Shown here piece by piece: positions 5,674 through 62,206 of a stretch of DNA of 64,000 bases; positions within the stretch are counted from its first letter, which is position 1; each line of letters begins with the position of its first letter. The notes under the pieces were generated by a model. The model searched no databases. It was not told where the DNA came from and was given only the letters and a program-made list of their open reading frames with translations. The position numbers and the translations under genes are program-made. This DNA is from a bacterium. GTDB taxonomy: Bacteria > Zhuqueibacterota > QNDG01 > DSAB01. Where the stretch lies: positions 1 through 64,000 of the forward strand of contig JAFGDT010000021.1 of assembly GCA_016931965.1 (NCBI GenBank), written 5' to 3'.

Positions 5674-6366
5674 ATGATAGGTAAAAAAGAACATATATTC
5701 ATCATTGAGGATGAAGAAGACATCATTGAATTGGTGCGCTACAATCTGGAAAAAGAAGGGTATCGTGTTTCGTCTGCTCTTTCCGGAGAGGAAGCCCTGA
5801 ATCAAATTCGATCTCAAATCCCCGATCTGATTATTCTCGATCTCATGCTCCCCGGCATCGACGGTCTCGAAATCTGCAAAATCTTAAAAAACGATCCGAA
5901 AACTGCCCAGACCCCCATCATCATGCTCACAGCCAAAGGCGAAGATATCGACATTGTGACCGGGCTGGAATTGGGAGCTGAAGACTACATTACCAAGCCG
6001 TTCAGCCCAAAAGTGTTGATTGCACGAATCCGGGCTGCTCTACGGAGAAATCGAAAGAAAGAAACAGATAATAAATCAACCGTCCAAATCCATAATCTCT
6101 CACTGGATCCGATACGATTCGAAGTTCGGGTGGATGAAAGTCCTGTCGAACTCACAGCCACAGAATTCCACACGCTTCATTATCTCATGCAACATCCCGG
6201 ATGGGTTTTTACACGATCCCAGATCATCGATTCCATAAAAGGAACCGATTACCCTGTCACTGACCGTTCCGTGGATGTCCAGATCGTTGGACTCAGGAAA
6301 AAACTAAAATCGGCAGGCAAATATATTGAAACCGTGCGGGGCATCGGATACCGTTTCAAGGAGTAG
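5674..6366 (+). CDS. phoB: PhoB-type response regulator (OmpR/PhoB family)
   Basis: A 230-residue two-domain regulator. The receiver spans about 6-122 with the acidic pair Glu12-Asp13, phospho-acceptor Asp56 in LDLMLPG, Thr86 and Lys108-Pro109. The winged-helix DNA-binding domain spans about 131-230 and ends in VRGIGYRF. Together with the adjacent PhoR-like kinase (3 bp gap) and the Pst/PhoU genes within 12 kb, this is most likely the phosphate-starvation regulator. GAGG abuts the ATG, which is closer than usual, but no better in-frame start exists before the first beta strand. It probably binds the triple direct repeat at 16855-16887. Confidence 0.88.
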   Translation: MIGKKEHIFIIEDEEDIIELVRYNLEKEGYRVSSALSGEEALNQIRSQIPDLIILDLMLPGIDGLEICKILKNDPKTAQTPIIMLTAKGEDIDIVTGLELGAEDYITKPFSPKVLIARIRAALRRNRKKETDNKSTVQIHNLSLDPIRFEVRVDESPVELTATEFHTLHYLMQHPGWVFTRSQIIDSIKGTDYPVTDRSVDVQIVGLRKKLKSAGKYIETVRGIGYRFKE

Positions 6367-6369
6367 ACA

Positions 6370-8172
6370 ATGAAATCGAGAAGAAGCCTTCTGTGGCACT
6401 ACTATCCCTATCTTTTACTGATTATCGTATGCTCATTGGTTATTCTCGCCCTGTATACCTCAAGTCTACTAAAAAAAAGTTATCTCGACAGCACAACCCA
6501 GAATCTTTATGCGCGTTCCCAATTGATGGGAAAACTCATTTTTAACCAAGTGACAACAGAAGATTTTAAAGCTGTTCAAGCATTGTGTGATTCTTTGGGC
6601 CATGAGTTGTCTTACCGTATAACGGTTATTCTTCCTTCCGGAGAAGTGGTTGGAGACTCAGAAGAAGATCCCAATGGGATGGACAATCATCATGACCGTC
6701 TCGAAATTAAAAACGCTCTCAACAACGAAATAGGTGTTTCCACACGTTACAGTTATACATTAAATGAAAAAATGTTGTATGTAGCGGTTCCCATTAAAAA
6801 TCAAGATCAGATTGTCTTTATAGTAAGAAGCTCTCTTCCCATAACCTTCCTATCTAATACTTTAACAGCCATCTATCGTCGAATTACTCTGATCGGTTCC
6901 TTCATCGTACTGGGAACGGCTGTCATGACATGGCTGTTTTCCCGGCAGATCAAAAAACCCATCGAAGAGTTGGAAAAAGGTGTATTGCATTTTGGAAACG
7001 GCGATCTGGATTACCGGATTTACATTCCCAAACCCGAAGAGTTCAATATTCTATCGACCGCAATGAATAAAATGGCCGCACAACTCAATGAGGAGCTGCA
7101 TAAAATAACGAACCAGAAAAAAGAATTGGAGTCCATTCTTTCAAGCATGATCGAAGGGCTTCTGGTTATCGACAAAGATGAAAAAATAACTCGATTAAAT
7201 CAGGCCGCAAGGGATATACTCAATTTAAAAGCCGAAGAAACACACCAGCGCACCATACAGGAAGTGATTCGCAACACGGAACTTTTGCAATTTATTCAGA
7301 CCATTTTATCCAAAGGTAAAAAAGGAGAAAAAGAGCTCTCGCTTCATGAAAAAGAAGGGATTGATTTACGGGTGTACGGAACCATTTTCGAGGATGAAGA
7401 CCATCGCACAATCGGTGCATTGATTGTATTGAACGACATCACCCGGTTGAAACAGCTTGAAAAAATTCGCAGGGAATTTGTGGACAATGTCTCCCACGAA
7501 CTGAAAACGCCAATAACGGCCATTAAAGGCTCCCTCGAAACATTAAAAGAGGGTGCGGTCAACAAAAAACGGGATGCCGACCATTTCCTCGATATGATGA
7601 TAAAACATACTGACCGCTTGAACGCAATCGTTGAAGATCTGTTGAACCTTTCCCGAATCGAACAGGAAGCCGAGGGCAATCAGATTACTTTTTCAAACAC
7701 CACTATAGTCAATGTCTTAGAAGAAGCGATTTCTGTCTGTCAAAACAAGGCGGCTTCAAAAAACATACAAATTGAAATGGAATGTGACGAAGATATTCAG
7801 GCCAAAATCAATCCTTTTCTTTTGGGGGAAGCCCTCATCAATTTGATCGACAATGCAATAAAATACAGTGAAGAAGAAAGTCATGTTCAAATGAAAGCAT
7901 ATAAAGAAAATAGCGAGGTTATCATTCAGGTTGTCGATTCGGGATGTGGGATCCCCGAAGAACATCAATCTCGAATCTTCGAACGGTTCTATCGCGTGGA
8001 CAAGGGTCGAAGCCGCGACCTGGGCGGAACAGGGCTGGGTCTTGCCATTGTCAAACACATCGTCCAGGCCCACCATGGGACCATTCGAGTGAAAGACAAT
8101 ACACCAAAGGGATCTATATTCACAATAAGACTGCCATTGAAGGACCTGGATAATGTAGAATATACATTATGA
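6370..8172 (+). CDS. phoR: PhoR-type sensor histidine kinase
   Basis: A 600-residue membrane kinase. Order: helix 13-32, extracytoplasmic sensor about 33-168, helix 170-190, HAMP about 191-243, PAS about 252-360, HisKA with His376 in VSHELKTP, and HATPase with Asn495, DSGCGIPE (523-530) and GGTGLGLAIVKH (552-563). A periplasmic segment plus HAMP plus PAS is the PhoR layout of Firmicutes and many other phyla; E. coli PhoR lacks the large periplasmic part. AAGGAG ends 6 bp before the ATG and only three bases separate it from phoB, so the two are translated together. It should phosphorylate the PhoB-like regulator when phosphate is low. Confidence 0.88.
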   Translation: MKSRRSLLWHYYPYLLLIIVCSLVILALYTSSLLKKSYLDSTTQNLYARSQLMGKLIFNQVTTEDFKAVQALCDSLGHELSYRITVILPSGEVVGDSEEDPNGMDNHHDRLEIKNALNNEIGVSTRYSYTLNEKMLYVAVPIKNQDQIVFIVRSSLPITFLSNTLTAIYRRITLIGSFIVLGTAVMTWLFSRQIKKPIEELEKGVLHFGNGDLDYRIYIPKPEEFNILSTAMNKMAAQLNEELHKITNQKKELESILSSMIEGLLVIDKDEKITRLNQAARDILNLKAEETHQRTIQEVIRNTELLQFIQTILSKGKKGEKELSLHEKEGIDLRVYGTIFEDEDHRTIGALIVLNDITRLKQLEKIRREFVDNVSHELKTPITAIKGSLETLKEGAVNKKRDADHFLDMMIKHTDRLNAIVEDLLNLSRIEQEAEGNQITFSNTTIVNVLEEAISVCQNKAASKNIQIEMECDEDIQAKINPFLLGEALINLIDNAIKYSEEESHVQMKAYKENSEVIIQVVDSGCGIPEEHQSRIFERFYRVDKGRSRDLGGTGLGLAIVKHIVQAHHGTIRVKDNTPKGSIFTIRLPLKDLDNVEYTL

Positions 8173-8198: not shown

Positions 8199-8882
8199 TT
8201 AGATATCTTCTGTTTTATTGACAGGATTAAATCCAATCCGATCAAACGGATTGACAATACTCGTTGTGATATTCCTGAGGTGGGAATTCACCCGTTTCAA
8301 CCAGCGAAAATAGAGAGCAAGCGTAGCGGCATCCCCGATGGTTAATTTTTTGTCTTTTTCCTGTACCAGCTCGATTGACCTCTGATTACATTCCGGATTC
8401 ACATATTCATATTCTTTTAACAATTTCATTGCAGCTTTGACATCACTGCTTTCAATACACGCTTTTGTGCGAATAAAATTATCTTTAACAGCCTCTTCAA
8501 TCTTTTTCAGACTGGGTTCAAACAATCCCCCATCCAGTTTTCTTGGATGTGCCATGGCGAGTTCAACAATGTTTTTTGTATAGTCACCAATACGTTCAAT
8601 ATCAATGACAATGCTGACCAGGACAAGACCTCCGGGCAATTCGTTCGGTCCCTGGAGTGCACAATGCGTCATCACCTTGCGCCGAACTTCCTGCTCATAT
8701 TGATTGACAATTTTGTCTTTGTCTCTAATCTCTTTTTTAATGATCGAATCATCACTTTCGCGAAGACTGCGAATGGCCTCAAGAAACATCTCATGTGTGA
8801 TATCGAGCATCTCGAAAGATTGTTTCCATGCTTGATCGAGCAGATTGTCCGATTTCCACATTTTGATAAGATTGCGCCACAT
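8199..8882 (-). CDS. PhoU-domain protein linked to a Na/Pi cotransporter
   Basis: A 227-residue helical protein with a PhoU-like pattern: VLVSIVIDIERIGDYTKNIVELA (middle third) matches the metal-binding ERIGD helix of PhoU. It is distinct from the second, canonical PhoU at 16973-17656. It follows the Na/Pi cotransporter by 22 bp in the same direction; in many bacteria the PhoU domain is fused to the C-terminus of such transporters, and here it appears as a separate gene that may regulate it. It converges on phoR with a 26 bp gap and no clear terminator. Confidence 0.85.
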   Translation of the reverse strand: MWRNLIKMWKSDNLLDQAWKQSFEMLDITHEMFLEAIRSLRESDDSIIKKEIRDKDKIVNQYEQEVRRKVMTHCALQGPNELPGGLVLVSIVIDIERIGDYTKNIVELAMAHPRKLDGGLFEPSLKKIEEAVKDNFIRTKACIESSDVKAAMKLLKEYEYVNPECNQRSIELVQEKDKKLTIGDAATLALYFRWLKRVNSHLRNITTSIVNPFDRIGFNPVNKTEDI

Positions 8883-8904: not shown

Positions 8905-10002
8905 TTAATGAACAAATATGAAAATTAAAAAAATAAAATGCAGTGAAATATAAATCGTAACAAACAATACCAGATTTCTTTTGGATTTGCTCGCCTTTCT
9001 TCCGATAAATTCGGCAAGCTTAATCGGAATAAATCGTAACGGATAAAAAACCATAACGCCGAGAATATTAAAACAGAGATGCGCAAAAGCGACCGTCACC
9101 GCGATATCGTTCTGTGTAACCAATGCTGCCATAATCGCCGTCACAGTCGTTCCAATGTTGGAACCCAGCGTATAAGGAAATATCTGCCGAATGGATACCA
9201 GTCCGGCGCCGGCAAGCGGTATGATGAGTGAGGTCGTCACCGAACTGCTCTGGACGATCGAGGTCATGAAGACTCCTAAAATAAATCCGAGTGTATCGTT
9301 CCGAAATAAATACTTGTTGATGACAATCTCTATTTTAGAAAGGACGAGCGAACGAATTGTTTTAATGAGCATGGTCAAAGCCGAAAAAAGCAGTACCAGT
9401 GAAACCACCATCATCACAATGTGGGTAAAAGGAACATGAGTAAAAAGGATTTCGATCTGTTGTATCACCGGATCGAGAATCACCTTGAGTGGATTAAAGA
9501 CCTCCATGCCTCCGGATCCGGCGAAGTAACTTTCCAACCTGATCGCCACCTTTGCCAGCAGATGAAAACGGAGTTCGATCGGAAAGAGGACAAGCACAGC
9601 CAATATGTTAAAAAAATCGTGGACTATGCTTGCCGAAAAGGCTCTCTGAAACTCGATACGGTTCGAGACATGCCCCATCGAAACCAGTGTATTGGTGATC
9701 GTCGTTCCGATATTGGCACCCATGATAATGGGAATGGCATTGTAGAGAGACAACGCATCGCCTGCCACCAATCCAACAACAATCGAAGTGGTTGTCGAAG
9801 AACTCTGTATCAGACTGGTGGAAACAACGCCGATGAGGAGACCTGCAAAGGGATTCGACGTCATCCGAATCATCGATTCGGCGAATCCTTTTCCAAAAAG
9901 CTTGAACGAGTGCCCCAACAGATTGATGCTGAGTAAAAATAAATAGACAGACAGAATAAGGAGGAATGCTTTGGTAATTTTTAATCTTGTCTCTGAACTC
10001 AC
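8905..10002 (-). CDS. Na/Pi cotransporter family protein (NptA/PF02690 type)
   Basis: A 365-residue membrane protein with the internal duplication of type II Na/phosphate cotransporters: QSSSTTTS (66-73) and QSSSVTTS (251-258), each followed by a paired GANIGTT (95-101) or GSNIGTT (280-286). Known role: sodium-coupled phosphate transport across the inner membrane; some bacterial members may export phosphate. It lacks the C-terminal PhoU domain found in longer homologues, which is encoded next door instead. The start is a GTG with GGAG several bases upstream. No Pho-box-like repeats were seen in its upstream spacer. Confidence 0.88.
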   Translation of the reverse strand: MSSETRLKITKAFLLILSVYLFLLSINLLGHSFKLFGKGFAESMIRMTSNPFAGLLIGVVSTSLIQSSSTTTSIVVGLVAGDALSLYNAIPIIMGANIGTTITNTLVSMGHVSNRIEFQRAFSASIVHDFFNILAVLVLFPIELRFHLLAKVAIRLESYFAGSGGMEVFNPLKVILDPVIQQIEILFTHVPFTHIVMMVVSLVLLFSALTMLIKTIRSLVLSKIEIVINKYLFRNDTLGFILGVFMTSIVQSSSVTTSLIIPLAGAGLVSIRQIFPYTLGSNIGTTVTAIMAALVTQNDIAVTVAFAHLCFNILGVMVFYPLRFIPIKLAEFIGRKASKSKRNLVLFVTIYISLHFIFLIFIFVH

Positions 10003-12036: not shown

Positions 12037-12795
12037 TCACCCGAAGCGGCCTGTCACATAATCTTCCGTTTTTTTGAGTTTTGGATTGGTAAATATCTGA
12101 TCCGTCTCCCCGAATTCCACCAGCTCACCAAGATAGAAAAATCCCGTATAGTCGGAAACACGCGCCGCCTGCTGCATGTTGTGCGTCACAATCACAATCG
12201 TATATGCCTTCTTGAGATCAAAAATCAGCTCTTCGATCTTCTGCGTCGCAATCGGATCCAGGGCCGATGCCGGTTCGTCCATCAGGATCACCTCCGGCTG
12301 AACGGCGAGCGCCCGGGCGATGCAGAGCCGCTGCTGTTGACCGCCGGACAGATCCATGGCCGAATGATGAAGACGGTCGTGGACTTCTTCCCAAAGGGCA
12401 GAGTCCTTCAGACTTTTCTCGACACGCTGAGCAAGGAGAGACCGGTTTCTTTCCCCGTTGATGCGAAGTCCGTAAGCCACATTATCGAAAATGGATTTGG
12501 GAAACGGATTCGATTTCTGGAAAACCATCCCGACCCGCCGCCTTAAATCGACCACGTCGACATTTTTCTCATAGATGTTCTGTTCGCCCAGAACAATGGT
12601 ACCTTCGACTTTTGTACCGGGTATAATATCATTCATGCGATTGAGAGACCGAAGAAATGTGGATTTCCCGCACCCCGAAGGTCCGATCAATGCGGTCACT
12701 TTATTTTTTTCAATATCCATATCGATATTCGTCAGAGCCCGGAAATCACGGTAATAAAAGTTGAAACGGCGTGTGTACATCTTGATTTCTGGCAT
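12037..12795 (-). CDS. pstB: Phosphate ABC transporter ATP-binding protein PstB
   Basis: 252 residues, typical PstB length. Walker [10 protein letters not shown] (38-46), Q-loop VFQKSNPFP (91-99), signature LSGGQQQR (149-156), Walker B VILMDEP (169-175) and switch His205 are present. The frame continues upstream into pstA, but the ATG at 12795 has GAGG six bases before it and gives the family N-terminus. It powers high-affinity phosphate import with PstA/PstC at the inner membrane, and is last in the operon porin-pstS-pstC-pstA-pstB, 8 bp after pstA. Confidence 0.95.
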
Positions 12796-12803
12796 CGAAA
12801 ACC

Positions 12804-13676
12804 TCAAGCCCGTTTGTATTTTTTCCGAAAGCGATAACGGATCCAGACGGCAAAACCATTCATCATGAGGATCAGGACAATCAACACCAGAGCCGTGCCA
12901 TAGGCGAGGGGTCGCACCTTGACGATTTCGTGGTGCTGTGTGGACATAATGAACAAATGATAGGGCAACGCCATAAACTGCTGCGTCAGCAGTTTCGGAA
13001 ATTGCGGAAGGATGGGCCAGAAAAAAGCAACACCGGTAAACAAAATCGGTGCTGTCTCCCCTGCAGCCCGGGCCAAACCCAGAATCGTCCCGGTCAGCAT
13101 GCCGGGAACGGCGTAGGGAAGTACGTTCGTTCGGATCGTCTGCCATTTTGTAGCACCCAATGCAAGTGCGCCCTCACGGTATGACATCGGTACTGTTTTC
13201 AATGCTTCCTCGCTGGCGGTGATCGTCCAGGGTAGCGTCAGCAGTCCCAGTGTTAAACCTGAAGAAACGACGGACAATCCGAAGTTGAGCATCAGGGTGA
13301 ACAAAGCAAACCCAAACAGACCGTACACGATGGAGGGAACACCCGAAAGGTTTCGGATCGACAACCGGATGAGACGGATGACCCTCCCCTGCTTTGCGTA
13401 TTCATTCAGGTAAATAGCCGTAAACATGCCGATAGGCACAGAAAAAATGACCGTGACGACACTGACCCAGAATGTACCCACGATGGCAGGCCATATTCCC
13501 CCTTCCGTCATTCTCAAGCGCGGCTTGTCCGTGATAAATTCCCAGTTGATCACATGAAACCCCTTGGAGATAATATCATAGAGGATAAATCCCAAAACCA
13601 AAATAATCATCAGCGCGGATAGCCGGAACAGAGAAAACCCGATAAACTGGTTGATTTTTCTCAGCGTGATTTTCAT
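12804..13676 (-). CDS. pstA: Phosphate ABC transporter permease PstA
   Basis: A 290-residue inner-membrane permease with six helices. The EAA loop near [22 protein letters not shown] shows the coupling motif EGALALGA, and the region [16 protein letters not shown] is typical of PstA. Its ATG overlaps the pstC stop by four bases (ATGA), so the two permeases are translationally coupled. It forms the heterodimeric channel with PstC. Confidence 0.95.
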
Positions 13677-14584
13677 CGGTTCACCTTTTGATATTTCTGG
13701 AGAACCATATCTGAAACCAGATTGACGAGAAACGTCATTAAAAACAGGACAAACGCAATGACAAACAATGCGTGATAATGCAGGCCCCCCTGAACAGTCT
13801 CGCCTAACTCAATGGCAATCGTTGCCGTCATCGTCCGTACAGAATCAAAAAAACTATGCGGCATGGCCGGTGCGTTCCCGCAGGCCATCAATACGGTCAT
13901 GGTTTCACCAATGGCACGCCCCATACCCAGCATGACCGAAGCAATAATTCCGGACATGGCTGATGGAAGGGTTACCCGGATCAGGGTCTGCCACCGGTTG
14001 GCACCAAGTGCCAGAGAGGCATTTTTAAATTCCTGGGGTACGGAGATGATGGCATCTTCGGAAATACTGATAATCGTCGGCAGGGACATAACAGCCAGGA
14101 GAAGAGAGCCATTGATGGCATTCAGTCCATTGGATATACGAAACAGTTTCGCAATGAGAGGACCGACAACAATGATGCCCAAAAAACCGATAACCACAGA
14201 AGGAATGCCGGCCAGTATTTCAATCACTGGTTTCACAACTTCCCGCATCTTCGGATTGGCCACATCGGCCAGATAAGCGGCGCTGGCTATTCCGAGCGGA
14301 ACCGCAATAACCAGCGCACCAATTGTCACCATCATTGTACTGACAATCATGGCGAGAAGTCCGTAGGACTCTCTTTCTGGAGAGGTTGGATCCCAGCGGT
14401 TGTTGAGAAAAAATTCCTTCAGGCCCACTTCCTTGATGGCAGGGAATCCTTCAATAAACAAAAGGGAAAAAATACCAAGCAGAATAACAACGGCAACAAG
14501 ACCATTAAAAAGGAAAAAATGCTCGATTGCTTTTTCCCTGAATCGGCGGGGCAGTAGATTCGCAATACTTTTTGTTTTCTTCAT
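13673..14584 (-). CDS. pstC: Phosphate ABC transporter permease PstC
   Basis: A 303-residue permease with six helices. It has the PstC coupling loop (EFKNASLALGANRWQT) and the MGRAIGETMTVLMACGNAP segment seen in the family. The open frame extends twelve codons upstream to 14620, but the ATG at 14584 (MKKTKSI) is preceded by an AAAGAG ribosome site and is preferred. It overlaps pstA by four bases. Confidence 0.94.
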   Translation of the reverse strand: MKKTKSIANLLPRRFREKAIEHFFLFNGLVAVVILLGIFSLLFIEGFPAIKEVGLKEFFLNNRWDPTSPERESYGLLAMIVSTMMVTIGALVIAVPLGIASAAYLADVANPKMREVVKPVIEILAGIPSVVIGFLGIIVVGPLIAKLFRISNGLNAINGSLLLAVMSLPTIISISEDAIISVPQEFKNASLALGANRWQTLIRVTLPSAMSGIIASVMLGMGRAIGETMTVLMACGNAPAMPHSFFDSVRTMTATIAIELGETVQGGLHYHALFVIAFVLFLMTFLVNLVSDMVLQKYQKVNR

Positions 14585-14725: not shown

Positions 14726-15613
14726 TTAAAAACCGGCTTCCTTGTTATTCTCCAGGTATTGACCGGAGACAGGATAAAAGGACATTTCCTCGACGATTCT
14801 CTGTCCTTCTGGCCCCAGTTCAAAAGCGATAAAATCCCTGACGGCCCCTTCGGGTTTACCGTTGACATATTGATACAGAGCCCTGGCAATGGGATAAATG
14901 CCGGATTTCACATTTTCGGAATCGAGCGGTGTGACTGGCTCCGCTCCTGTTTCTGCGGCAACGGATAAAACGGTCAATCCTTCTCTGATATTGGCATTGT
15001 CATCATACACATAACCGATACCGACATAACCGATGGCGGCTTTGTCAGCAATAACACCCTCTACAATCTGAGCGTTGCCGTTCATCTGTTTCATTTTCTG
15101 AGAGTAGTCTTTATTGCCGAGAACATGCTCCTGGAAAAAGACGAATGTTCCCGAATTCGGCTGCCTTCCGTACAAGGAAATAGGCGTATCGGATCCCCCT
15201 ATTTCTTGCCAGTTTAATATTTCTCCTCTGAAAATAGCGCCGATTTGATCCATGGTCAAAGAGGTGATCGAATTAGCGCTGTTGACAATCACAGAGAGGC
15301 CATCAATGCCGATGACCAGCTCGTAAGGATGAACACCGTTTTCTTCGGCTGCTTCATACTCGCTCTCTTTCATGGGACGGGAAGCATTGGCTATCTGTAC
15401 ACGATCCGCTATTAATGCAGCGATACCGACACCGGATCCGCCGCCCGTTACGGCAATCGCCGTATTGGGATTCTGTTCCATATAGACTTCCGATAGACGC
15501 TGTACCAGATTAATGAGCGTATCCGAGCCCTTGATCTGGATGAAATCTTGGGACAGAACATGGCCGATCCCTATACAAAAAATCATGAAAACAGTAAAGA
15601 ATGTACGTCTCAT
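14726..15613 (-). CDS. pstS: Periplasmic phosphate-binding protein PstS
   Basis: 295 residues with a signal peptide (hydrophobic 5-19, cleavage expected near LSQD). The mature protein shows the phosphate-binding PBP-like-2 signatures: KGSDTL (27-32), GGGSGVG (58-64), the SRPM segment, and RQPNSGTFVFFQEHVL. It is of the compact Gram-positive/Bacteroidota-like PstS type. It lies 21 bp after the porin gene and delivers phosphate to PstC/PstA. Confidence 0.94.
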   Translation of the reverse strand: MRRTFFTVFMIFCIGIGHVLSQDFIQIKGSDTLINLVQRLSEVYMEQNPNTAIAVTGGGSGVGIAALIADRVQIANASRPMKESEYEAAEENGVHPYELVIGIDGLSVIVNSANSITSLTMDQIGAIFRGEILNWQEIGGSDTPISLYGRQPNSGTFVFFQEHVLGNKDYSQKMKQMNGNAQIVEGVIADKAAIGYVGIGYVYDDNANIREGLTVLSVAAETGAEPVTPLDSENVKSGIYPIARALYQYVNGKPEGAVRDFIAFELGPEGQRIVEEMSFYPVSGQYLENNKEAGF

Positions 15614-15634: not shown

Positions 15635-16735
15635 TTATATTTCTATTTTGCCTGAATTGAACTCATACCAGAGTGTCACACGAACCGTGACGTCACTGCC
15701 TTTACCTTCCAGCGCATAATTTTGAACAATAATGTTGGGCATAAAATGAACGTTTTCGTTCGGTGTAAAATCAATTCCTCCAAAGACAAATGAGGTTTCA
15801 TCGTCAACCCCATTCACACTGTCACTGACCCACACATTGTCTTTCGTATTCGGATCATACAAATCGTAACGGGCGAAGACTTTGATTTTAGGAATGGGTG
15901 TAACACAGGAGCCGAAAAACGAAAAGCCCTGTTTGTTCACATCGGTTCTCGATGTACCGCCTGCGTCTGCAGATCCGGATTGTTTGTTGGTTCGCCGGAA
16001 CCATTCGGCTCCAACCGTAAAGCCGGACGTTCTGTACCCGAAAAATCCCTTCAGAGTTCTGTATGAAGAGGCACCAAAATAGTCCCTGGCTGAACTGATC
16101 GCATTGTCCCTGTCCTGCTTCTCATAGTCAATATAACCTTCAAGGATCAAACCGTCAACAGGTGTGAACCAGACGGCATAACCGATCTTCTTGTATTTGT
16201 CCTGCTCCGCATTCTGATAGCCTGTGCCGTTGTATACCGTTAACCAGTGATGGACGGTTCTGCCGACATCTCCTTTTAGTGCCATACCCATATCAGCGGA
16301 AGAAGAAATCTTATTCAGATCCATGATGGTCGCCTCAACAGACCGATATCCCCAGTAGTCCTCTGCATTTTTAAAGGCATTGGTTTCAGCAATCCCGAGA
16401 TAGAGTTTATGGCCGGAGATCAAACCGTTCCATTCCAGATAAGCGTGTTTGATAAAAGGATTGATCGGCCCCGATTGTTCGAATTTGGGATGTTTCGATT
16501 CGATGCGAAAGCGTATCCTTACATTTTCTGTGATGTTGTTTTCAAACGTAAAGTAAACACGCCGAAATTGAAAAGCATTCTGATTTTTCAAAGAGGAATC
16601 ATGGTTTTTGATCCCATAATAATAATCGGCAAATACCAAACCCTTAATTATAGAAGTGGTCAATCCATAACCCCGATCAGGCCTGACAATGGATACCAGC
16701 AAAATACAGGCTAAAATACACGTTCTTAATCTCAT
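15635..16735 (-). CDS. Outer-membrane porin of the pst operon, probable phosphate-selective porin
   Basis: 366 residues with a signal peptide (about 1-24). Alternating aromatic/hydrophobic strands predict a beta-barrel of about 16 strands, and the protein ends in an aromatic-rich strand (LWYEFNSG). It resembles OprP/OprO-like porins in layout (FQFRRVYFTFENNITENVRIRFRIE-type early strands), though the identity is weak. First gene of the porin-pstSCAB operon, immediately downstream of the Pho-box-like repeats, so outer-membrane phosphate entry is the sensible role. The open frame starts earlier, but the ATG at 16735 has GGGAGG four bases upstream. Confidence 0.8.
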   Translation of the reverse strand: MRLRTCILACILLVSIVRPDRGYGLTTSIIKGLVFADYYYGIKNHDSSLKNQNAFQFRRVYFTFENNITENVRIRFRIESKHPKFEQSGPINPFIKHAYLEWNGLISGHKLYLGIAETNAFKNAEDYWGYRSVEATIMDLNKISSSADMGMALKGDVGRTVHHWLTVYNGTGYQNAEQDKYKKIGYAVWFTPVDGLILEGYIDYEKQDRDNAISSARDYFGASSYRTLKGFFGYRTSGFTVGAEWFRRTNKQSGSADAGGTSRTDVNKQGFSFFGSCVTPIPKIKVFARYDLYDPNTKDNVWVSDSVNGVDDETSFVFGGIDFTPNENVHFMPNIIVQNYALEGKGSDVTVRVTLWYEFNSGKIEI

Positions 16736-16854
16736 GTTTCCTCCCTCTAATGACAAAATGATAGTTGTTGAATAAATTAAATCATTAACCTCCTTTCTGT
16801 TGTGTGCTCAAACATTTTAAAATTACTCATTTTACGTCTGGTATATTTGTTTTA

Positions 16855-16887
16855 TATTAAAACAATGTTAAAATTGTGTTAGAATTT
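16855..16887. promoter_or_regulatory. Candidate Pho box: three 11-bp direct repeats
   Basis: TATTAAAACAA, TGTTAAAATTG and TGTTAGAATTT follow each other without gaps at 16855, 16866 and 16877. On the minus strand the cores read CTAACA, TTAACA and TTAATA every 11 bp, the spacing and near-sequence of PhoP/PhoB operators (TTAACA-type repeats, one helical turn apart). The site lies 119 bp upstream of the porin-pst operon and 85 bp upstream of divergent phoU, so one array could control both. Confidence 0.7.
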
Positions 16888-16972
16888 CAATATTTCATTT
16901 TGGCTATCGTTTTTATTAAGTTTTCTATGTATATTCAGTTGTAGATTATAAAATATAAATTGGAGGCATAGA

Positions 16973-17656
16973 ATGTTGTACAGACTACAAAGGGAGATCG
17001 AAAATTTAAAAAAAAGAATATTAACCTTGGGAGCACTTGTTGAAGAACATGTCTACCTGGCTGTCAAAGCCATCAGCGACCGCGATGAAAAATTAGCCCA
17101 GCAGGTGATCGATGGGGATATGAAAATAGACGAAATGGAAGTGGACCTTGAAGAAGAGTGTTTGAAGCTTCTGGCTCTGCACCAACCTGTAGCCATCGAT
17201 TTGAGATTTATTGTAGCTGTCCTTAAGATTAATAATGATCTGGAACGTATTGGAGATCTTGCCGTCAATATCGGAGAAAGGGCAGCCTATCTGGCGGTCA
17301 AGGAACCGGTTAAAATGCCATTCGATTTTAAAAAAATGACAGACAAGGTCAGAACGATGCTGAAAAAAAGTCTGGATTCGCTGGTCAATGTGGATACCAA
17401 ACTGGCTTTGGAAGTCGGCGGAATGGATGATGAAGTAGACGCAATCAACCGCGAAACATACAGAAAGGTCGCTGAAGGAATAAAAAAACACCCTGAACAG
17501 TCGGATTGCTTACTTCATTTATTGAGTGTTTCCCGGCATTTGGAACGGATGGCCGACCAGGCAACCAATATCGCAGAAGATGTCATTTATATGATTGATG
17601 GAACCATTGTTCGTCATAAAACTGAAAAATATGTAACATCATCCATCAAGAAATGA
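16973..17656 (+). CDS. phoU: Phosphate signalling protein PhoU
   Basis: 227 residues, typical PhoU length, with two three-helix PhoU repeats. The repeat signatures are VLKINNDLERIGDLAVNIGERA (near 85-106) and LLSVSRHLERMADQATNIAEDVIY (near 182-205), carrying the metal-binding E-x2-D positions. It links Pst transport to PhoR inhibition when phosphate is plentiful. GGAGG precedes the ATG. It is transcribed divergently from the porin-pst operon instead of following pstB as in enteric bacteria. Confidence 0.94.
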   Translation: MLYRLQREIENLKKRILTLGALVEEHVYLAVKAISDRDEKLAQQVIDGDMKIDEMEVDLEEECLKLLALHQPVAIDLRFIVAVLKINNDLERIGDLAVNIGERAAYLAVKEPVKMPFDFKKMTDKVRTMLKKSLDSLVNVDTKLALEVGGMDDEVDAINRETYRKVAEGIKKHPEQSDCLLHLLSVSRHLERMADQATNIAEDVIYMIDGTIVRHKTEKYVTSSIKK

Positions 17657-61889: not shown

Positions 61890-62206
61890 GGTCACTTCCT
61901 CCTAAGATTAATCGGTTTATTTTCACTAATATAACAATAACTTTTAATAAAATAAACAAAAAAATATTAATAGATGTATCCCTGTGCATAAATAGGATAA
62001 CGAAAAGTAGTATTTATTTAAATACTTATAAAACATATATTTTTTTATAGTTATTTAATAATGATATTTTGTGATAAGACAGTGGAAAAGTTGTTTAAAA
62101 CGTAGAGAAGAAAATAGAAAAATTGTTATGAAGTACTTTGAACTGGAATTGTTCACATTACATTAACATACAATTAACACCATTCACCTGATTCAACAGG
62201 ATATTT
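61890..62206. other. dnaA-dnaN spacer, AT-rich, possible oriC part
   Basis: 317 bp, exceptionally AT-rich at 61918-62085. It holds one DnaA box TGTGCATAA (61983-61991, i.e. TTATGCACA on the other strand). The AT-rich stretch beside it would suit a DNA unwinding element. It also must hold the dnaN promoter if dnaN is not read through from dnaA. No hairpin terminator seen. Confidence 0.5.

Follow-up and report, generated by a model that had tools for sequence, protein, structure and literature searches.

A four-unit, 11-bp-phased candidate Pho box upstream of the porin-pst operon of a KSB1 bacterium

The spacer separating phoU from a divergent porin-pst operon in this bacterium carries an array of hexamers repeated every 11 bp which, as judged from its sequence and that of its counterparts in relatives, is very probably the binding place of the phosphate-starvation regulator. 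We hold with high confidence that this array would form the core of a Pho box: under phosphate starvation, PhoR would phosphorylate the PhoB-like product of 5674-6366, whose binding to the box would activate porin-pstSCAB. The kind of switch is known, and in the KSB1 lineage it has apparently not been described before; the facts that appear specific to the lineage are a four-unit layout with a weak third unit, an Arg-to-Gly change in PhoB and recurrent promoters predicted before TonB-dependent receptors. The outcome is an operator definition for an uncultured phylum (four phased YTAACA units, the third of them weak, with the -10 after 9 bp) that is concrete enough for the KSB1 Pho regulon to become readable from genomes.

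The window, that is, the whole 64-kb stretch of DNA that was analysed, is part of contig C42 of a draft genome of 3.54 Mb. The closest relatives of its PstA are candidate division KSB1 bacteria and MAGs (81-85% identity) and, because the nearest named ones are KSB1, the host lineage is taken to be KSB1. As defined by the ORF coordinates, the spacer spans positions 16757..16972 (216 bp, 23% GC). Toward the minus strand it is followed by the gene for a predicted outer-membrane porin (15635..16735, with an ATG at 16735 preceded by GGGAGG), the first of a presumed operon. This gene yielded no Pfam, NCBIfam or PDB sequence match; its predicted structure is a beta-barrel (mean pLDDT 68), the phosphate-specific porin OprP (2o4v) gave the highest query-normalised TM-score among the matches listed (0.68), and its predicted identity as a porin is thus settled by the fold search and not by sequence. 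On the same strand lie pstS (14726..15613; TIGR02136, 228.8 bits), pstC (13673..14584; TIGR02138, 298.9 bits), pstA (12804..13676; TIGR00974, 294.5 bits) and pstB (12037..12813; TIGR00972, 411.8 bits), and on the plus strand the divergent phoU (16973..17656; TIGR02135, 212.5 bits), all of them exceeding the family cut-offs. About 9 kb from the array, the gene of a phoB-like response regulator, the presumed binder (5674..6366, plus strand; Response_reg and Trans_reg_C domains, with TIGR02154 as best family at 259.2 bits, below the equivalog cut-off of 296.2), is followed by that of its presumed partner, a phoR/pnpS-like sensor kinase (6370..8172, plus strand) scoring 389.9 bits against PnpS (cut-off 400) and 299.8 against PhoR (cut-off 334.2). 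This pair, the sole phosphate two-component pair found in the window, adjoins the genes for a second PhoU-domain protein (8199..8882, minus strand; PF01895, 71.4 bits) and a Na/Pi symporter (8905..10002, minus strand; PF02690 and NF037997, the latter exceeding its cut-off with 124.3 bits). An Rfam scan of the window found no RNA family.

The initial annotation had reported a triple 11-bp direct repeat at 16855-16887, with TTAACA-type hexamers, and had proposed it as a Pho operator shared by phoU and the porin-pst operon. Three contiguous 11-mers are found exactly at these positions (TATTAAAACAA, TGTTAAAATTG and TGTTAGAATTT or, on the minus strand, AAATTCTAACA, CAATTTTAACA and TTGTTTTAATA); of 33 pairwise positions, 22 agree, and the best-fitting local period is 11. 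Taken simply as a repeat, they are only modestly unusual by a first-order Markov null, with p = 0.015 when the period is set to 11 and 0.08 when any period of 9-13 is allowed. The phased YTAACA array, with 17 of 18 hexamer letters, was matched by none of 5000 Markov spacers, and the array spacer is the sole exact match to the three-unit pattern in the genome. The two-unit pattern was not enriched genome-wide (2 matches versus 6 in the reversed control) and, therefore, the decision rests on comparison, with conservation as the decisive evidence.

For this comparison, the upstream regions of pst operons from KSB1 genomes were used. The array, with the same spacing to the -10, was present in every KSB1 porin-pst or pstS locus that was readable, including those in which phoU is not divergent, so that the repeat is indeed conserved upstream of pst in relatives. 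When periods of 7 to 24 were evaluated on both strands of 11 upstream regions against a Markov null, only periods 11 and 22 were enriched, and only on the sense (porin) strand; for period 11, nine of the 11 loci reached 11 of 12 letters on the sense strand and none did on the antisense strand (null mean 0.07, largest value 2). When the upstream regions were aligned on unit 1, a fourth unit came to light, along with a -10-like hexamer whose offset is fixed: +48 from the start of unit 1 gives the best TATAAT match of all offsets (a mean of 4.0 of 6 letters, versus 1.9 overall). The description of the repeat as triple was, thus, right about the three 11-mers and fell short of the array, which has four units, the weaker fourth and the -10-like element lying beyond 16855-16887. 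On the minus strand, the layout is CTAACA-N5-TTAACA-N5-TTAATA-N5-CAAATA, running from 16882 to 16844 toward porin-pstSCAB. The site alignments, one of them made with 12 KSB1 sites, are ungapped. Over 13 sites, unit 1 (CTAACA, 16877..16882) shows a mean of 1.31 bits per position, unit 2 (TTAACA, 16866..16871) 1.37, unit 3 (TTAATA, 16855..16860; weak, and YTMAT-like in relatives) 0.84 and unit 4 (CAAATA, 16844..16849; YTAACA-like in relatives, with two A columns invariant in the first site set) 1.05. The predicted -10 (TAAAAT, 16829..16834, minus strand), placed by the offset test, lies 9 bp downstream of unit 4. In the same 13 sites, the -10 reaches a mean of 1.08 bits per position and the first linker, which is AT-rich, 0.71; the means are 0.06-0.17 in linkers 2 and 3 as well as in the gap, and 0.06-0.09 in the flanks. 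The strict 11-bp phase and the YTAACA-type hexamers of the alignment agree with the type and phasing that had been proposed. In one relative (L061:2635-2791), a single porin-pst operon is preceded by two full boxes of four units, separated by about 100 bp and each having its own TATATT -10.

The array, its fixed spacing to the -10, its conservation, its direction and its association with phosphate genes across the phylum are read from the sequence, and the last four lend support to the proposal of a Pho operator for porin-pst; we infer the identity of the binder (PhoB), the need for phosphorylation, the activating effect and the transcription start. Since the array matches the known geometry of a Pho box, the best account is a PhoB-dependent activation of porin-pstSCAB. 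Briefly, under phosphate starvation the adjacent PhoR would phosphorylate PhoB (5674-6366), which would bind head-to-tail to the four YTAACA-type subsites; with their 11-bp phase, these would occupy a single face of the helix and, in the porin-pstSCAB promoter, the region from about -60 to -22. Bound PhoB would replace the -35 element and recruit RNA polymerase to the -10 at 16834-16829, and the outer-membrane porin and the high-affinity Pst importer would be switched on.

In Bacillus subtilis, the PhoP operator has four TTAACA-type hexamers, spaced by roughly 11 bp, on the coding strand of Pho promoters and ahead of the -10; the Pho core binding site of this organism was reportedly described by Liu and Hulett in 1998 (as listed among the references of PMC6232261). 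The KSB1 array shares with the Bacillus operator the TTAACA-type hexamers and the four units upstream of a -10, the third being degenerate, but differs in that its phasing is strictly 11 bp, its unit 3 is weak (YTMAT), its units 1 and 2 often read CTAACA and its host is a porin-bearing uncultured phylum. More generally, the phosphorylated regulator binds head-to-tail to a Pho box, which comprises at least two direct repeats of 11 nt (PMC4415409), and in E. coli the box lies about 10 bp upstream of the -10 (PMC1906773). The array presents tandem direct repeats of 11-bp period, lies upstream of pst and other phosphate genes, is conserved in relatives and, by its position 9 bp before the predicted -10, would replace a -35 element. 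Like the E. coli PhoB box (PMC4415409, PMC1906773), it consists of direct repeats of 11 bp placed some 10 bp before the -10, but the E. coli core is CTGTCAT, versus YTAACA here (scores for CTGTCA rise only where the letters overlap), and the Arg201 of E. coli PhoB is Gly in the KSB1 order. The cyanobacterial SphR box, with an 8-bp consensus CTTAACCT, 3-bp linkers and at least three tandem repeats (PMC1906773), is alike in its 11-bp period, TTAAC core and number of repeats, although the KSB1 unit ends in A and not in CT. In D. vulgaris, the PhoB site is (c/t)GT(n)AC (PMC3333781). The pstS promoters of Halanaerobiia and Clostridia (L069, L071, L073, L079 and L080) also combine four phased units with a TATAAT-like element, and a KSB1-trained model matches them through the -10 region (model positions 2-53 or 2-55), although most of their units start with T instead of C. 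When loci are scored simply by their hexamers, pst is preceded by YTAACA arrays in KSB1, Firmicutes, Ignavibacteria, Electryonea and one Phycisphaerae locus, and by CTGTCA/GTCAC forms in the proteobacterial loci examined. A TTAACA-type Pho box of the same geometry, therefore, reaches beyond Firmicutes into KSB1 and is also seen in Ignavibacteria and Electryonea. The notion that this operator form had gone undescribed in the lineage is probably true, as none of the papers searched joins KSB1 and the Pho regulon, whereas the form itself is of the known Bacillus and cyanobacterial type.

A chance repeat in an AT-rich spacer could be envisaged from the modest rarity of the bare repeat (p = 0.015-0.08) and from the existence of an equally good array elsewhere: in the dnaA-dnaN spacer (62152-62179 of the window), three 11-bp-phased hexamers (TTCACA/TTAACA/TTAACA) reach the same hexamer score as the pst array. 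The dnaA-dnaN array was discarded as an operator, and is probably due to chance, because none of nine relatives whose spacer could be read has it; for the pst array, in contrast, the conservation across families and the fixed phase, strand and -10 offset refute chance, which has become exceedingly improbable. It is also hard to believe that the repeat serves phoU as a promoter element. The plus-strand TGTTAAAAT and TGTTAGAAT do resemble extended -10 boxes, and a plus-strand promoter-like match exists (TTAAAA-17-TAGAAT, with TG before the second hexamer), but chance alone would yield about two such sites in the region, the array is kept where its neighbour is not phoU (L058, L060-L065, L043) and the conserved -10 is on the porin side and not on the phoU side. 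Finally, 11-bp tandem sites serve several regulators of the OmpR/PhoB family and the recognition helix of the window PhoB is atypical, so that another OmpR-family protein might bind the array in place of the local PhoB; this we regard as quite unlikely, given that pst genes of both KSB1 and Halanaerobiia have this type of box upstream and that the window holds a single identified phosphate two-component pair.

A separate question is whether PhoB bound at the array also controls phoU, by activating it or by covering its promoter, as a shared operator would imply. In favor of this, phoU diverges from the same spacer in three genomes (the window, G006 and G002), and the boxes of its own that it possesses in G004 and G057 place it in the Pho regulon of some relatives. 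However, the window spacer has no array or fixed -10 toward phoU, the model finds no plus-strand site in it, and visual inspection revealed no arrangement common to the phoU sides of the three divergent loci. Because the array and its -10 are directed toward porin-pst and persist where phoU is located elsewhere, and because in G004 a separate array points at phoU, the sharing suggested by the initial annotation was not supported and is considered doubtful, although phoU could be affected through occlusion by array-bound PhoB.

The preferred reading, in which PhoB activates porin-pstSCAB, draws attention to a PhoB recognition helix that lacks a key arginine. The base contacts of E. coli PhoB are made by T194, V197, R201 and R219 (PMC3264566); the KSB1 PhoB has S199, V202, G206 and R222 at these positions, three of them kept or conservative and Gly standing for Arg201. 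This Gly, like the family score of PhoB below the equivalog cut-off, counts against the preferred reading. The helix reads DVQIVGLRKKL in the window PhoB versus DVHIRRLRKAL in E. coli, the positions of E. coli His198, Arg200 and Arg201 being Gln, Val and Gly, also in other members of the order. DVQIVGLRKKL is common to G002, G004, G006 and Electryonea, and L063 has DVQVAGLRRKL. At L060 and L062, nearby PhoB-like genes encode the helix DVHIRKIREKL and yet the same TTAAC box is found, which rules out the helix change as a simple cause of the operator change: since these loci differ in helix and keep the box, there is no simple co-variation between the two, a further point against the preferred reading.

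A sequence-only model built without the window, and then searched over genomes, ranked the array site first in the 3.5-Mb genome (E = 0.022; next match 0.35) and first within the window (E = 3.7e-4; next 0.8). The search of the own genome revealed no other gene with a significant box, phoB and the Na/Pi symporter being without one, which also speaks against the preferred reading; the weak match on contig C71 (E = 0.35), before a sensor-like gene, was rejected, as it has no -10 at the expected place. Within the taxonomic order, sites outside the training set were found before a window-type porin (G009), Porin_O_P (G001, G010) and pstS (G010, G005). A scan of 82 genomes of the phylum (matches at E up to 0.01) located boxes before pstS (G054), a porin (G076), phoU (G057) and a PHO4/PiT transporter (G043); further matches precede TonB-dependent receptors (seven genomes or more) and, in two genomes, GT21 glycosyltransferases. 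The model also matches pstS promoters in Halanaerobiia. Matches, thus, do precede phosphate genes, as the initial annotation had asked, with promoters of pstS, porins, phoU and the PiT transporter recovered.

The Pho-box-like promoters before TonB-dependent receptors (L177, L178, L180, L184, L185, L189 and L190, also L163) have E values up to 0.025, and the receptors were recognised as CarboxypepD_reg plus Plug by Pfam where scanned, and the others by sequence likeness. A phosphate-regulated TonB transporter in the KSB1 phylum is implied, as far as promoter sequences can tell; many of the model matches sit before TonB receptors of unproven phosphate role, which counts against the reading of the array as a PhoB-bound Pho box. 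The boxes before GT21 glycosyltransferases are those of L187 and L193 (G028 and G036), and a weak one (L153 in G007, E = 0.25) is located before a PAP2 phosphatase and a glycosyltransferase-like gene, behind a phoR-like gene; the boxes linked to GT21 and PAP2 suggest lipid remodelling during phosphate starvation. It is conceivable, and we propose it only tentatively, that the PhoB of the KSB1 order, whose helix is DVQIVGLRKKL or a near variant, recognises the YTAACA box with no Arg201 contact of the E. coli kind, relying on the altered helix and on minor-groove readout in the AT-rich linkers; its regulon would then contain, besides pst and the porin, an undescribed TonB-dependent receptor and genes for glycolipids. 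In two species of one genus (L156 in G003 and L158 in G008), the model matches CTAACACAATCCTCATGATTTCCTAACA and a near copy of it, with no recognisable gene downstream in the direction of the model. Lastly, in G002 (L170:1501-1545), a partial box, CTAACA-N5-CTAACA, lies between the divergent genes for phoB and a DUF4136 lipoprotein and points at the latter.
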